Position numbers and translations under genes: made by a program
Shown: piece by piece, positions 1,170-26,225 of the stretch
Layout of the letters: the number at the start of each line of letters is the position of its first letter
How positions within the stretch are numbered: the first letter of the stretch is position 1
Assembly (NCBI GenBank): GCA_017512705.1
Contig: JAFWEX010000008.1
Span: forward strand, 24,949-88,948
Direction of reading: 5' to 3'
Origin: Paenibacillus sp.
Lineage (GTDB): Bacteria; Bacillota; Bacilli; Paenibacillales; Paenibacillaceae
DNA length: 64,000 nt
The notes under the pieces: model-generated
What the model saw: only the letters and a program-made list of their open reading frames with translations
Told to the model about the DNA's origin: nothing
Database searches by the model: none

Positions 1170-1198
1170 TTGTCAAACTGATGATTATCATGTATAGT
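1170..1198 (+). promoter_or_regulatory. Sigma-A promoter of the trp operon
   Basis: A -35 box TTGTCA (1170-1175) and -10 box TATAGT (1193-1198) are separated by 17 bases. Transcription should begin near 1204-1206, just at the first triplet of the TRAP-type array. This would give the trp operon its own promoter inside the aro supra-operon, as in Bacillus subtilis. Confidence 0.8.
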
Positions 1199-1204
1199 GG
1201 GAAT

Positions 1205-1265
1205 TAGTTGAGTAGAGCTAAGATTGAGCTGAGAGCAGCTGAGTTTAGTTGAGTATATAGCAGAG
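1205..1265 (+). promoter_or_regulatory. TRAP (MtrB) binding array in trp leader RNA
   Basis: Twelve NAG triplets (five GAG in the core plus more at the ends, three UAG, one AAG, one CAG) start at 1205, 1210, 1215, 1220, 1226, 1231, 1236, 1241, 1246, 1251, 1258 and 1263. The spacing is almost strictly 5 bases, that is, a triplet plus two spacer bases. This is the known signature of RNA wrapping around the 11-subunit tryptophan-activated protein TRAP. It lies at the extreme 5' end of the transcript, roughly 340 bases before the leader terminator. GAG-UAGAG at 1210-1217 is complementary, with one bulge, to the 5' arm of that terminator (CTCTAC at 1604-1609), so TRAP binding could release the terminator. 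The pairing is inferred. Confidence 0.85.
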
Positions 1266-1600
1266 TCCAGTGATTGGTAGCCGGTGCATCTGAAATCGGT
1301 CAACGCATTCACGGTATGTCTTGCTAAGATGAAGTACAGGAAAGAGAGAATAGGGGTGTCTTACGGACATCGTATATTCGCATACTAAGGAAGAGACATT
1401 TCAAGTCACCACTTCTTGGGCGTTGATTCATTTCTCAAGTAATAAGGTGCCAATGACCACGAGATGTTACCAAGTATGATCTTTCATGAATAGGGTGAAA
1501 CCATGGAACAGTATGGATTAACAACCTTTCATTCATCTTACGTAAGTGTATAGGGACTTGTTATTTATGAAGCAGCATGCCTGAATACAGCTTATAACCA

Positions 1601-1630
1601 AACCTCTACCTCATGGTAGAGGTTTTTTGT
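1601..1630 (+). terminator. Leader attenuator terminator before trpE
   Basis: AACCTCTACC (1601-1610) and GGTAGAGGTT (1615-1624) form a perfect 10-bp stem with a 4-base loop, followed by a run of T. It sits 45 bases before trpE inside the transcribed leader, so it should act as the attenuator. From 1266 to 1600 I see no other strong hairpin and no clear gene. Confidence 0.88.
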
Positions 1631-1674: not shown

Positions 1675-3243
1675 ATGATAACGCCAAACGTTAACCAAGT
1701 ACTGAAAATGTCAAATGAGTATAATCTAATTCCCGTTGTTAAGCGGATTTTGGCTGATATGGAAACACCAATTCGAATCTTCCGCCGTTATGCGGATAAT
1801 GACCGTGCGTTTCTGCTTGAAAGTGTAGAGGGTGGCATTCAATGGGCTAGATATTCCTTCATCGGGACAGATCCGTTCTTGATGATTTCGGCAAAGAAAG
1901 GACGTATTGTGGTCGAGGAAGCAGGACAGACCCGTGAATTGCCGGGCAAACCGATCGAAGAGCTCAAAGCATTGCTTCGCAAATATCGGAGCCCGAAACT
2001 GGATGAACTTCCCCCTTTTACGGGTGGTGCGATAGGATTTTTTGGATATGACCTTTTGCAATATTATGAGAAGCTTCCAGCTCATGCACTAGATGATCTG
2101 AAAATGGATGACATTCGCTTTATGTTCTGTGATCAGATCGTTGTGTTTGACCATGTGAAGCAGCATATGTTGCTTGTTGGCAATGTACACGTCAAGGACG
2201 GTGCTACGGATGAAGAGATTCGTCAGGCATACGCAGCCACCTCCGAGAAGCTTGAACAGGCAGCAGAGCGTTTGCAGCAACAAGGGCCAGGGGAAAACCT
2301 GAACCCGCGTTCCATCCCTGGCGATGTGGAGCTTGGAGACGTTCGCTCCAATGTGACGAAAGAGCAATTTATCGGCAATGTAGAGCAAGCCAAAGAATAC
2401 ATCCGTTCAGGAGACATTTTTCAGGTTGTACTGTCCCAGCGTTTTCACATTGATACGGAAATATCGCCTTTACATGTGTATCGCGTTCTACGGACATTGA
2501 ACCCTTCACCTTATATGTATTATTTGAAAATGGATGATGAGATCATCGTAGGCACCTCTCCTGAGGCACTGGTCAAGGTGGACGGCAACCGTGTAGAAAC
2601 TCGTCCCATTGCAGGTACACGTCCAAGGGGAGCCACAGAGGCGGAAGATCGATCACTTGCGGCAGATTTGCTTCAAGACGAGAAGGAACGAGCTGAGCAT
2701 CTGATGCTGGTGGATCTTGGAAGAAATGATTTGGGCCGTGTATCCACTTTTGGCAGTGTGAAATGTGACATGTTTATGGAAATTGAGCGATACTCTCACG
2801 TCATGCATATGGTTTCGAACGTGACAGGTGAGCTAAGAGAAGACAAGGATTTCTTCGATGCGTTCCTTTCATGCTTACCAGCTGGAACTGTATCTGGTGC
2901 GCCGAAGCTGCGTGCGATGGAGATTATTGCAGAGTTGGAAAAGGAAGCACGTGGTGCCTACGCAGGAGCGATTGGTTACCTTGGTTTCTCTGGAAACATG
3001 GATGCATGTATCACCATTCGAACAATTATTTTCAAAAAAGGAAAAGCATATGTGCAGGCTGGAGCCGGCATTGTATGGGATTCCGTACCTGAGAAGGAAT
3101 ATGAAGAGACAGTAAACAAAGCGAAAGCCTTGTTAAAGGCTATACGGACAGCTGAAGCGATGTTTCCTTCAAAAGTGGACGAACGCAAATTAAGTCTGGC
3201 TAACGCTGATTATTTCGTCACACCAACAACGGCAACGAACTGA
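1675..3243 (+). CDS. trpE: Anthranilate synthase component I
   Basis: This 522-residue protein makes anthranilate from chorismate with an amidotransferase partner. The LLES motif at residues 47-50, where tryptophan binds in feedback-inhibited enzymes, is present. The chorismate-binding domain shows AGTRPRG, LVDLGRNDLGRV and GAGIVWDSVPEKEYEET. The start is ATG after AAAGGA with 9 spacer bases. No trpG glutaminase gene is in the operon, so the glutaminase subunit must be encoded elsewhere, as with pabA/trpG of Bacillus subtilis. It is the first gene of a tightly packed trpEDCFBA run and is controlled by the upstream leader. Confidence 0.97.
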   Translation: MITPNVNQVLKMSNEYNLIPVVKRILADMETPIRIFRRYADNDRAFLLESVEGGIQWARYSFIGTDPFLMISAKKGRIVVEEAGQTRELPGKPIEELKALLRKYRSPKLDELPPFTGGAIGFFGYDLLQYYEKLPAHALDDLKMDDIRFMFCDQIVVFDHVKQHMLLVGNVHVKDGATDEEIRQAYAATSEKLEQAAERLQQQGPGENLNPRSIPGDVELGDVRSNVTKEQFIGNVEQAKEYIRSGDIFQVVLSQRFHIDTEISPLHVYRVLRTLNPSPYMYYLKMDDEIIVGTSPEALVKVDGNRVETRPIAGTRPRGATEAEDRSLAADLLQDEKERAEHLMLVDLGRNDLGRVSTFGSVKCDMFMEIERYSHVMHMVSNVTGELREDKDFFDAFLSCLPAGTVSGAPKLRAMEIIAELEKEARGAYAGAIGYLGFSGNMDACITIRTIIFKKGKAYVQAGAGIVWDSVPEKEYEETVNKAKALLKAIRTAEAMFPSKVDERKLSLANADYFVTPTTATN

Positions 3244-10310: not shown

Positions 10311-10397
10311 GTACAGTATGGTTTCTCTCCACTCCTATCCAATAACTGTATTGCTCCACGTGAGCAATGGCCGCTTATGAAAGCGGTCTTTTTTTTT
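10311..10397 (+). ncRNA. Predicted small RNA, about 87 nt, unknown family
   Basis: Between a perfect promoter and a strong terminator lies about 87 bases with no credible reading frame. The 5' part carries a C-rich, apparently single-stranded stretch (CTCTCCACTCCTATCC, 10325-10340). It is followed by a 7-bp hairpin ATTGCTC/GAGCAAT (10350-10368, loop CACGT) and then the terminator stem GGCCGCTT/AAGCGGTC (10369-10388) with nine T. This layout, a C-rich seed followed by stable hairpins, resembles regulatory sRNAs of Firmicutes such as FsrA, but I do not recognise the sequence. It could also be the attenuated start of a longer transcript. Confidence 0.65.
10369..10397 (+). terminator. Terminator of the predicted small RNA
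   Basis: An 8-bp stem (10369-10376 with 10381-10388, one G-T pair) with loop ATGA is followed by nine T. Confidence 0.88.
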
Positions 10398-10822
10398 GTC
10401 CAAAAAGAAAATTAATTTGTTAAACGAGCTTATAAAGTTACAAAAATAATATTTTTATAAAAAAACCATCTCATTTTTGTAACCTTTTTGAGACTTACCA
10501 CGTCTATAGGATGTAAGGCTTTTTAATAAGCTTTTTCAAGAAGTCATGACAACGAATCCAGTCGCATATGAATGTCAAATCGGCAAAAGTGGATAGCAAT
10601 GGATTTGCCAGGAGGATGCAGACCGTTGTACAATGTTACTGTTATGTAAAAACGTTGGGGAAATTGCCATTACATAGGGGAATTTGGCGGAAGGGCCTGT
10701 ATTGGCGCTGTACGCCTTTTTTATGCGGTCAAAACCGCAACTTTTTAATGCCTGTTCGGTAATATATGCATAGAGTCGAACGGGGAGAAGCACATGGATG
10801 GGCGAGGAGGGGTCGCACTCAA
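10398..10822 (+). other. AT-rich intergenic region and 5' leader of the ECF sigma gene
   Basis: After the sRNA terminator there is an AT-rich stretch, the ECF-type promoter at 10478-10504, and a leader of about 310 bases. The leader holds two small hairpins near its 3' end: GGCG/CGCC followed by six T (around 10703-10717), and GCGGT/ACCGC (around 10727-10740) followed by AACTTTTT. These could be weak attenuators. No conserved gene is visible. Confidence 0.5.
10478..10504 (+). promoter_or_regulatory. ECF-type promoter, probably autoregulatory
   Basis: TGTAAC (10478-10483) and CGTC (10501-10504) are 17 bases apart, resembling the TGAAAC-N16/17-CGTC boxes used by SigW/SigM-type ECF factors. As ECF operons are commonly autoregulated and the next gene is an ECF sigma factor, this is likely its own promoter. 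Confidence 0.6.
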
Positions 10823-24923: not shown

Positions 24924-26225
24924 GTGGTGGTTCATTGGACACAAGCAGATGATGAAATGGCAAAACAAAGTGAAAAGGTACTCCAGCGATTAAATGAAGA
25001 AGGGTTCAAGGCCTACTGGGTTGGCGGTTGTGTTCGTGATGAATTGTTAGGGCGAGCTGTTGATGATATGGACATTACAACTTCGGCTTCACCGGAACAA
25101 GTCATGGGCATATTCGACGACTGTATTCCTACAGGATTACAGCATGGCACGGTAACTGTCCGATCAGGCGGTTATTATTTTGAAGTCACTACATTTCGTA
25201 CAGAGTCAGAGTATCAGGATAATCGTAGACCTTCTGCGGTACAATTTGTACAGAATATCCAAGAAGATTTACAACGGCGGGATTTTACAATGAATGCTCT
25301 AGCCATGCATGTTGATGGAACGATCGTGGATCCGTTTGGTGGGCAGATGGATATTAAGCAAGAGCTTGTGCGATGTGTAGGCCTGGCGGTTGAACGTTTC
25401 GGTGAGGATGCACTGCGGATGCTTCGTTGTATACGATTTGCGTCGGTCTTTGATTTTAGCATTGCCTACAATACCTGGAAAGGGCTCGTCGATCAACGCG
25501 AATTACTTCAGCATATTGCCATGGAGCGGGTTCGCACAGAGATGGTGAAAATGATGGCGGGTCCTCATCCTCAGAAGGGTTTGGAATTGTTATTCCGGAG
25601 CAGGGCATTAGAGTATGTTAAAGCTCCGATAGATTCCAGCAGATTCAACAAAGAGCTGTTAGTTGGGTTGGAGCATTTGACAGGGGAACATGTCTTGCTG
25701 CGATGGTCGTGTGTGTTATTAGCTGGTCGATATACCCGAGAAGAGGCAGACAAGCTGCTAAGACAGTGGACATTTTCAAATGAGCATCGAATTCGAATCA
25801 CAGGTGTGCTTCAGGTGGAAGAGTTGGTGACCACTTTTGTGGAGCATTGTGAAGATGATAACCTGCTACGGGAAAACTGGATTGTTACGGTGCTCTCTTG
25901 TGGTGCTCAAGCCGCGAACGACTGGTTAATTCTGCAAAAGCAACTTCCCCAAAAGTGGCGTGATGGTTCGGAGCGGGCACATGAACAGATGGCTAGAGTT
26001 CAAACTCATGCGGCCAGCTGGAGTCGATCCATGCCCGTCCACGAAATAAAAGAACTGCAAATCACGGGTGAACAGGTGTTGCAATTGGTAGAGCGTAAGG
26101 GTGGGCCTTGGCTCGGCCAGCTCATGAAACATTTACTTAAGGAAACAGCCATCGGAAATATAATGAATCAGTATGAAGCATTGTGTACTGAAGTGAAACG
26201 GGTGACTGCAAATGACCAAGTCTGA
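24924..26225 (+). CDS. cca: CCA tRNA nucleotidyltransferase
   Basis: This enzyme adds CCA to tRNA 3' ends. The 433-residue protein has the class II motif GGCVRDELLG followed by the metal-binding DDMDITT, then RDFTMNALA and EDALRMLRCIRFAS. A GTG start at 24924 is used after GAAGAGGTGAG; a second GTG follows directly, and an ATG lies at 24957 with no better ribosome site. It overlaps birA by 14 bases. Confidence 0.94.
   Translation: MVVHWTQADDEMAKQSEKVLQRLNEEGFKAYWVGGCVRDELLGRAVDDMDITTSASPEQVMGIFDDCIPTGLQHGTVTVRSGGYYFEVTTFRTESEYQDNRRPSAVQFVQNIQEDLQRRDFTMNALAMHVDGTIVDPFGGQMDIKQELVRCVGLAVERFGEDALRMLRCIRFASVFDFSIAYNTWKGLVDQRELLQHIAMERVRTEMVKMMAGPHPQKGLELLFRSRALEYVKAPIDSSRFNKELLVGLEHLTGEHVLLRWSCVLLAGRYTREEADKLLRQWTFSNEHRIRITGVLQVEELVTTFVEHCEDDNLLRENWIVTVLSCGAQAANDWLILQKQLPQKWRDGSERAHEQMARVQTHAASWSRSMPVHEIKELQITGEQVLQLVERKGGPWLGQLMKHLLKETAIGNIMNQYEALCTEVKRVTANDQV

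Follow-up and report, generated by a model that had tools for sequence, protein, structure and literature searches.

Organization of the trp locus

The window, the whole 64,000-nucleotide stretch of Paenibacillus DNA analyzed here, opens within an aromatic amino acid operon comprising aroB (partial), aroH, trpE, trpD, trpC, trpF, trpB, trpA, hisC, and tyrA. Gene names are taken from NCBIfam matches, among which those for aroB, trpF, and tyrA score under the curated cut-offs; trpE (1675–3243, forward strand), the first gene of trpEDCFBA, matches TIGR00564 above the cut-off. The 470-nt leader lies in the gap between the aroH stop at 1150 and the trpE start at 1675. Its transcription start is predicted near 1205 from a promoter-like site on the forward strand at 1170–1198 (TTGTCA-17-TATAGT), and −10 elements of the TATAGT type are also found upstream of the arrays of relatives. 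The leader RNA folds more stably than its shuffled counterparts (folding energy z −2.81). Elsewhere in the window, a match to RF02900 at 10361–10440 is probably due to chance, its score being 28 bits where the gathering score is 51.4.

The NAG array and its proposed binding protein

Twelve NAG triplets on the forward strand at 1205–1265 constitute the proposed TRAP site and, as argued below, the proposed 5′ strand of a long-range antiterminator; they are conserved in all 48 leaders of the alignment designated A1. The triplets start at 1205, 1210, 1215, 1220, 1226, 1231, 1236, 1241, 1246, 1251, 1258, and 1263, with G or U as the first base in 10 of the 12 and a 5-base step in nine of the 11 intervals, the other two being of 6 and 7 bases. 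This spacing fits the 2–3 spacer bases of TRAP sites, bar one gap of 4 spacer bases. An earlier note on this DNA had described 12 triplets with near-constant 5-base spacing after the promoter, and the triplet scan confirms that description. The array is the sole one above threshold in the 64-kb window, with a chain score of 21.1; the best chain from 40 first-order Markov simulations scored 11.9.

All 75 leaders of the genus have both an array and a CTCTAC-type terminator, and in 66 of them the chain contains at least 11 triplets. In the other nine (L077 and L095–L102) chains have only 5–7 triplets; those displayed (L077, L095, L096, L099, and L100) look like interrupted arrays. Some arrays in leaders from outside the genus, L119 and L120 among them, also look interrupted, in these cases by long inserts with the potential to fold into stem-loops.

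The gene for TRAP, mtrB, to which the earlier note pointed, is present in the same genome with a match above the cut-off (E 2.7e-40). It lies at C140:16390–16590 on the same contig, ∼8.4 kb upstream of the window, which begins at 24949. Every one of the 75 genus genomes has the gene, split into two overlapping pieces in G060, as do all 216 sampled Paenibacillaceae genomes and 272 of 398 genomes of the class. The encoded protein aligns without gaps to solved TRAP, and its nearest named relative is that of Paenibacillus sp. JJ-100 (100% identity over 73 residues). It carries residues F32, E36, K37, D39, K56, and R58 of the residue table in the part of PMC3184956 drawn on here. The same part counts the TRAP of Paenibacillus among the probable 12-mers, predicted from Lys15 and Thr72, in place of which the present protein has Glu15 and Ser72. 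Anti-TRAP, an accessory and non-defining component, is not found in this genome and is above the cut-off in four of 216 genomes of the family. That the leader is a TRAP attenuator is very likely.

Searches for other TRAP targets in the same genome reveal no enrichment, the five-triplet pattern giving 13 matches compared to 18 in the reversed control; no TrpP was found in this genome, and neither the pabB region (L139) nor the mtrB region (L141) contains an array above threshold. Two smaller repeats were observed. In L126 (1500–1538; G000:C24:9241–9278), eight NAG triplets span the ribosome site and the opening codons of a 246-residue frame (1504–2244), and could be either a translational site of the TRAP type or chance coding sequence. 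In L136 (∼695–728; G000:C151:696–728), a GAGAT-type repeat that can be read as ∼7 NAG triplets lies past the end of a gene and ahead of a terminator-like hairpin.

The terminator and its distance from the array

The terminator scan places a hairpin, AAACCTCTACC-TCAT-GGTAGAGGTTT, on the forward strand at 1600–1625, with an energy of −16.7 kcal/mol and a longest T run of 6; bases 1604–1609 of its 5′ arm are the partner of helix 1 described below. Two weaker terminator-like sites returned by the same scan lie within the array (1227–1240) and within the 1600–1625 hairpin itself (1608–1623). The hairpin is the only good terminator before trpE and lies 334 nt beyond the end of the array, in agreement with the earlier description of a sole attenuator hairpin some 340 bases past it. 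Matches to the terminator elsewhere (six genomes, query 440–476) were also considered, and the two inspected (L140 and L142) are each an ordinary terminator behind another gene.

The wide separation of array and terminator was compared across leaders from 75 genomes of the genus (the window included) and from 94 of the 172 TrpE-matching genomes of other genera of the Paenibacillaceae, a family with many plant-associated species. A terminator is detected in 167 of these 169 leaders. The distance from array to terminator ranges from 74 to 433 nt with a median of 180 nt in 158 of the 169, the 11 left out having an array below the score threshold or an undetected terminator. For comparison, 30 mtrB-containing genomes of other Bacilli were searched for TrpE; 23 matched, and 16 of their leaders have both array and terminator. 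Distances in these leaders are 8, 12, 18, 18, 18, 19, 22, 23, 24, 24, 31, 33, 46, 76, 79, and 114 nt, and 12 of the 16, from other Bacilli families, are at or below 33 nt. The 114-nt leader (L219) is the sole comparator from the same order and its terminator arm is also CCTCTAC, and the hairpin chosen in the 76-nt leader (L222) has an energy of only −4.0 kcal/mol and is possibly wrong. At the level of sequence, wide spacing between array and terminator is a lineage-specific trait of Paenibacillaceae.

Two observations concern the interval between terminator and trpE. Just ahead of the ribosome site of trpE, a conserved stretch (1643–1671) contains CTTCTACC, which complements the 3′ arm of the terminator and, partly, the GUAGAG of the array; this is a possible second, translational layer of control. 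The terminator is more than 130 nt upstream of trpE in 20 of the 75 leaders of the genus, with an insert that varies among them: in L038 and L062 it is ∼190 nt long, has ends that read as inverted repeats (GTTCAACTAAA / TTTAGTTGAAC), and resembles a small mobile element, and that of L090 differs.

Proposed pairing of the array with the region before the terminator

The earlier note had also proposed that the array complements the 5′ arm of the terminator, and a match of this kind exists: GUAGAG at 1212–1217 (forward strand), the 5′ strand of helix 1, pairs with CUCUAC at 1604–1609, and its six pairs are invariant in 48 of 48 leaders of A1. The two hexamer segments are invariant in 63 of 63 aligned leaders from two clades, so that the expected conservation is observed but the expected covariation is not, because the hexamer never varies in these 63 rows.

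The better support, and the discriminating part of the evidence, is a longer colinear helix in which the array and its 3′ flank pair with a conserved pre-terminator module and the 5′ arm. The module, of ∼55 nt (1548–1603, forward strand), is the proposed 3′ strand of the antiterminator and contains the partners of helices 2 and 3. Helix 2 has UGAGCUG at 1225–1231 (forward strand) as its 5′ strand and 1588–1594 as its partner, and helix 3 joins the 3′ end of the array with its flank (1253–1268, forward strand) to 1554–1569; in each, 98.8% of alignment cells are paired, and one pair of helix 3 changes from A-U to G-C in L075 and L076. Upstream of the module lies a variable spacer (1327–1547, forward strand), around which the DNA matches of many relatives are split into query 10–167 (array and stem) and 388–515 (module, terminator, and start of trpE). 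The duplex of array and module is colinear in the window and in the representatives displayed. In A1, 27 long-range pairs are standard in 99.1% of cells compared to 30–42% when slid; in a second alignment, A2, 37 pairs are standard in 99.3% compared to 33–51%. These pairs are mostly invariant in both alignments, and in both alifold joins the array region directly to the module. In clade B the helix extends beyond the array, pairing CCAUAUG with CAUAUGG and GAUUACAG with UUGUAAUC.

A control for composition is needed here because a GA-rich array pairs with any pyrimidine-rich stretch. When RNAs were folded with the 3′ arm still unmade, 94 of 95 leaders have the 5′ arm paired to their first 110 nt; arm pairing is 0.76 for the observed arrays and 0.61 for dinucleotide-shuffled arrays (39 leaders, four shuffles each). 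The hexamer GTAGAG occurs in the array zone of 96 of 109 leaders having a CTCTAC arm, and also of 25 of 41 having a CCTGC arm and five of six having a TTCATGCG arm; being common opposite the latter two, it was rejected as a marker of coevolution between arm and array. In 11 of 16 leaders of group g2, the longest perfect complement of the leader's own arm is just 4 bases.

Complementarity between array and module was measured against dinucleotide shuffles of the module. The mean duplex z is −1.56 (65 leaders, 34 of them below −1.64). Control windows give −0.13 in the spacer (30) and −0.31 upstream of the promoter (65); some of these upstream windows overlap interrupted arrays and give strong z values. 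Among 14 groups by genus, 13 have a negative mean and one, g12, a positive mean. For the window's own leader, z is −0.7 to −1.2, and at the value of −1.22 nine of 80 shuffles are as good, which taken alone is weak.

Consensus folds were calculated for 11 alignments of RNAs cut after the 5′ arm of the terminator, each compared with 12 column shuffles. Four exceed their shuffles: three by number of long-range pairs (g1A, 22 compared to a shuffle maximum of 13; g17, 17 to 14; g7, 24 to 15), and g1B by energy, at −49.4 compared to −40.6 for the best shuffle, with 41 pairs against a shuffle maximum of 43. The remaining seven (g1C, g13, g18, g2, g9, g12, and g5) do not exceed them; g13 and g2 give zero pairs, probably reflecting poor alignments, and the six arm pairs in g1C and g18 are equally present with shuffled modules.

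Within-clade covariation of the long-range helix is minimal and not significant. The change in L075 and L076 is the one double-sided pair of A1, equaled in 43 of 500 shuffles and in count by a slide of +3. In A2 the one double-sided pair, a G-C / G-U / A-U series outside the array in clade B, is equaled in 74 of 500 shuffles. The tool alignment of g17 contains 13 long-range pairs, one with a double change, and that of g7 contains 16 array–module pairs with none, its nine double changes residing in local stems. A swap of partners among eight lineages is negative, the matched array and module having the best energy in four of eight rows and two of eight columns. The evidence for the long-range helix is thus good in conservation and excess complementarity, and thin in covariation.

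These results bear on an alternative in which TRAP binds the array but array and module form no antiterminator, the complementarity being simply that of GA-rich for pyrimidine-rich sequence, and TRAP acts in some other way, through decay of the mRNA from its 5′ end, on translation, or by contacting polymerase. Although shuffled arrays nearly match real ones in arm pairing, the swap is unsupportive, and double-sided changes are few, this account sits poorly with a module whose complementarity exceeds that of dinucleotide shuffles while spacer and upstream controls do not, with conservation of the module next to a variable spacer, with consensus folds in four alignments, and with the continuation of the A2 helix outside the array. 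According to the part of PMC3913778 drawn on here, Bacillus subtilis TRAP can terminate transcription without an attenuator or terminator, but this direct route requires an A+U-rich stretch just downstream of the site, where the window has tccagtgattggtagccgg (1266–1284). Direct action of TRAP is hard to picture here, with 334 nt separating its site from a strong terminator and no A+U-rich stretch beyond the array. We regard this alternative as unlikely. The long-range antiterminator that TRAP could mask, as suggested in the earlier note, is the best-supported reading by virtue of mtrB, conservation, and the longer helix, whereas the hexamer match from which the suggestion started is weak evidence by itself.

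Other structured elements in the leader

Directly 3′ of the array is a stem-loop (1270–1312, forward strand) in which 1270–1273 pair with 1309–1312 and 1277–1284 with 1296–1304. Of its 11 pairs, 99.2% of cells are paired among 48 relatives, and five pairs show double-sided changes in 36 cells, compared to at most one pair and two cells in slid controls; it is better supported by covariation than the long-range helix. In g7 a local structured element likewise follows the array. Such elements could keep the array open, make polymerase pause, or stack against the long-range helix. Further downstream, a hairpin GTGTC...GACA at ∼1356–1369, ∼155 nt into the leader, recurs as a pattern in 39 of 48 rows of A1; a U-rich tract comes next in many of these rows and is absent in the window. 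The hairpin is possibly a pause site.

The stem-loop and hairpin, together with the stable folding of the leader, might alternatively indicate a local antiterminator like that of B. subtilis within the spacer or module, the array acting through an intermediate structure such that a spacer element frees or traps the module. However, no intermediate partner kept across clades was observed, the spacer varies in length and sequence, and alifold pairs the array region with the module directly, making a local antiterminator distinctly improbable. Control of the terminator by something other than TRAP, such as a T-box, a Trp leader peptide, or another riboswitch, would account for the length of the leader and the terminator at its end, both typical of such systems, but is very hard to reconcile with a conserved array and an mtrB gene universal in the sample. 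An Rfam search of the leader at E up to 1 returned zero matches, T-box included. As a separate candidate, a Trp leader peptide was rejected, with none of 18 candidate short frames having two Trp codons.

Staged folding and proposed mechanism

Leaders were folded at successive stages of terminator synthesis with the array free or blocked. At the stage where half of the 3′ arm has been made, the 5′ arm pairs mainly with the array (0.57–0.92) in 17 of 19 leaders as free RNA, and mainly with the terminator (0.28–0.49) in 16 of 19 when the array is blocked. The free-RNA exceptions are the window, with 0.37 for the terminator and 0.11 for the array, and L120. Once all of the 3′ arm has been made, 19 of 19 leaders form the terminator whether the array is blocked or free. 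Equilibrium favors the terminator by 7.6–15.6 kcal/mol, and the window has the largest gap. The comparison of free and blocked arrays proposed in the earlier note therefore reveals no difference at equilibrium, where the terminator forms in both cases, and the proposal is workable only as a kinetic switch.

Under the long-range reading, when no TRAP carrying tryptophan is present the array, lying at the 5′ end of the nascent RNA, and its 3′ flank would pair with the module and the 5′ arm of the terminator. This helix, formed earlier than the hairpin, would hold the 5′ arm while polymerase briefly traverses the U run, and would delay the hairpin until polymerase has passed, resulting in readthrough. 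TRAP bound to the array would take the 5′ strand away, whereupon the hairpin would form and transcription would stop. The time taken to transcribe the 334-nt spacer may allow TRAP to bind ahead of synthesis of the partner strand. Binding of TRAP, antitermination, and spacer timing are what we infer.

A trp operon attenuator with TRAP control and a long-range antiterminator helix is, on this evidence, the probable identity of the leader. A broader proposal, for and against which we see the chances as about even, is that throughout Paenibacillaceae a 5′-end TRAP site serves as one strand of an antiterminator on the ∼50-bp scale, reaching over a loop of ∼70–430 nt onto a fully intrinsic terminator, with TRAP acting by refolding only and never touching polymerase, and with the spacer and covarying stem-loop acting as a timer.

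Comparison with known systems

In its components, the leader is like that of B. subtilis trp: a NAG array precedes trpEDCFBA, mtrB is present, a terminator lies upstream of trpE, and the array could serve as an antiterminator strand. Its layout differs, and the leader is absent from Rfam. In the part of PMC3913778 drawn on here, the B. subtilis trp leader is 203 nt long with the terminator stem-loop at +108 to +133; the array there is close to the terminator, unlike the present 470-nt leader with its array at the predicted 5′ end. The B. subtilis terminator is weak, with six A-U and four G-C pairs and an interrupted U run (PMC3913778), unlike the present hairpin with its stronger energy and uninterrupted run. 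These B. subtilis features, as far as that part of the source describes them, suit a TRAP site adjoining polymerase. Attenuators of the B. subtilis type also have a 5′ stem-loop before the array (PMC3913778, same part), for which the transcription start predicted here, at the head of the array, would leave no room.

Like Bacillus halodurans TRAP, with its 19-triplet leader, the present case extends TRAP beyond the B. subtilis group. Leaders of Paenibacillus are not treated in the part of PMC3184956 drawn on here. Among the open-access PMC papers returned by literature searches, as judged by titles and abstract openings, none describes a TRAP leader of Paenibacillus. The choice between terminator and antiterminator is like that of T-box and riboswitch leaders, unlike which this leader has no Rfam match. 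To our knowledge it would rank among the protein-controlled attenuators with longer antiterminator loops.

In B. subtilis it is difficult to tell the refolding of RNA by TRAP from its action as a direct terminator, since the TRAP site adjoins a weak terminator (PMC3913778, in the part drawn on here). The Paenibacillaceae appear to have shifted this site to a position hundreds of bases from a strong terminator, and so to provide a natural experiment in which the two roles are kept apart.
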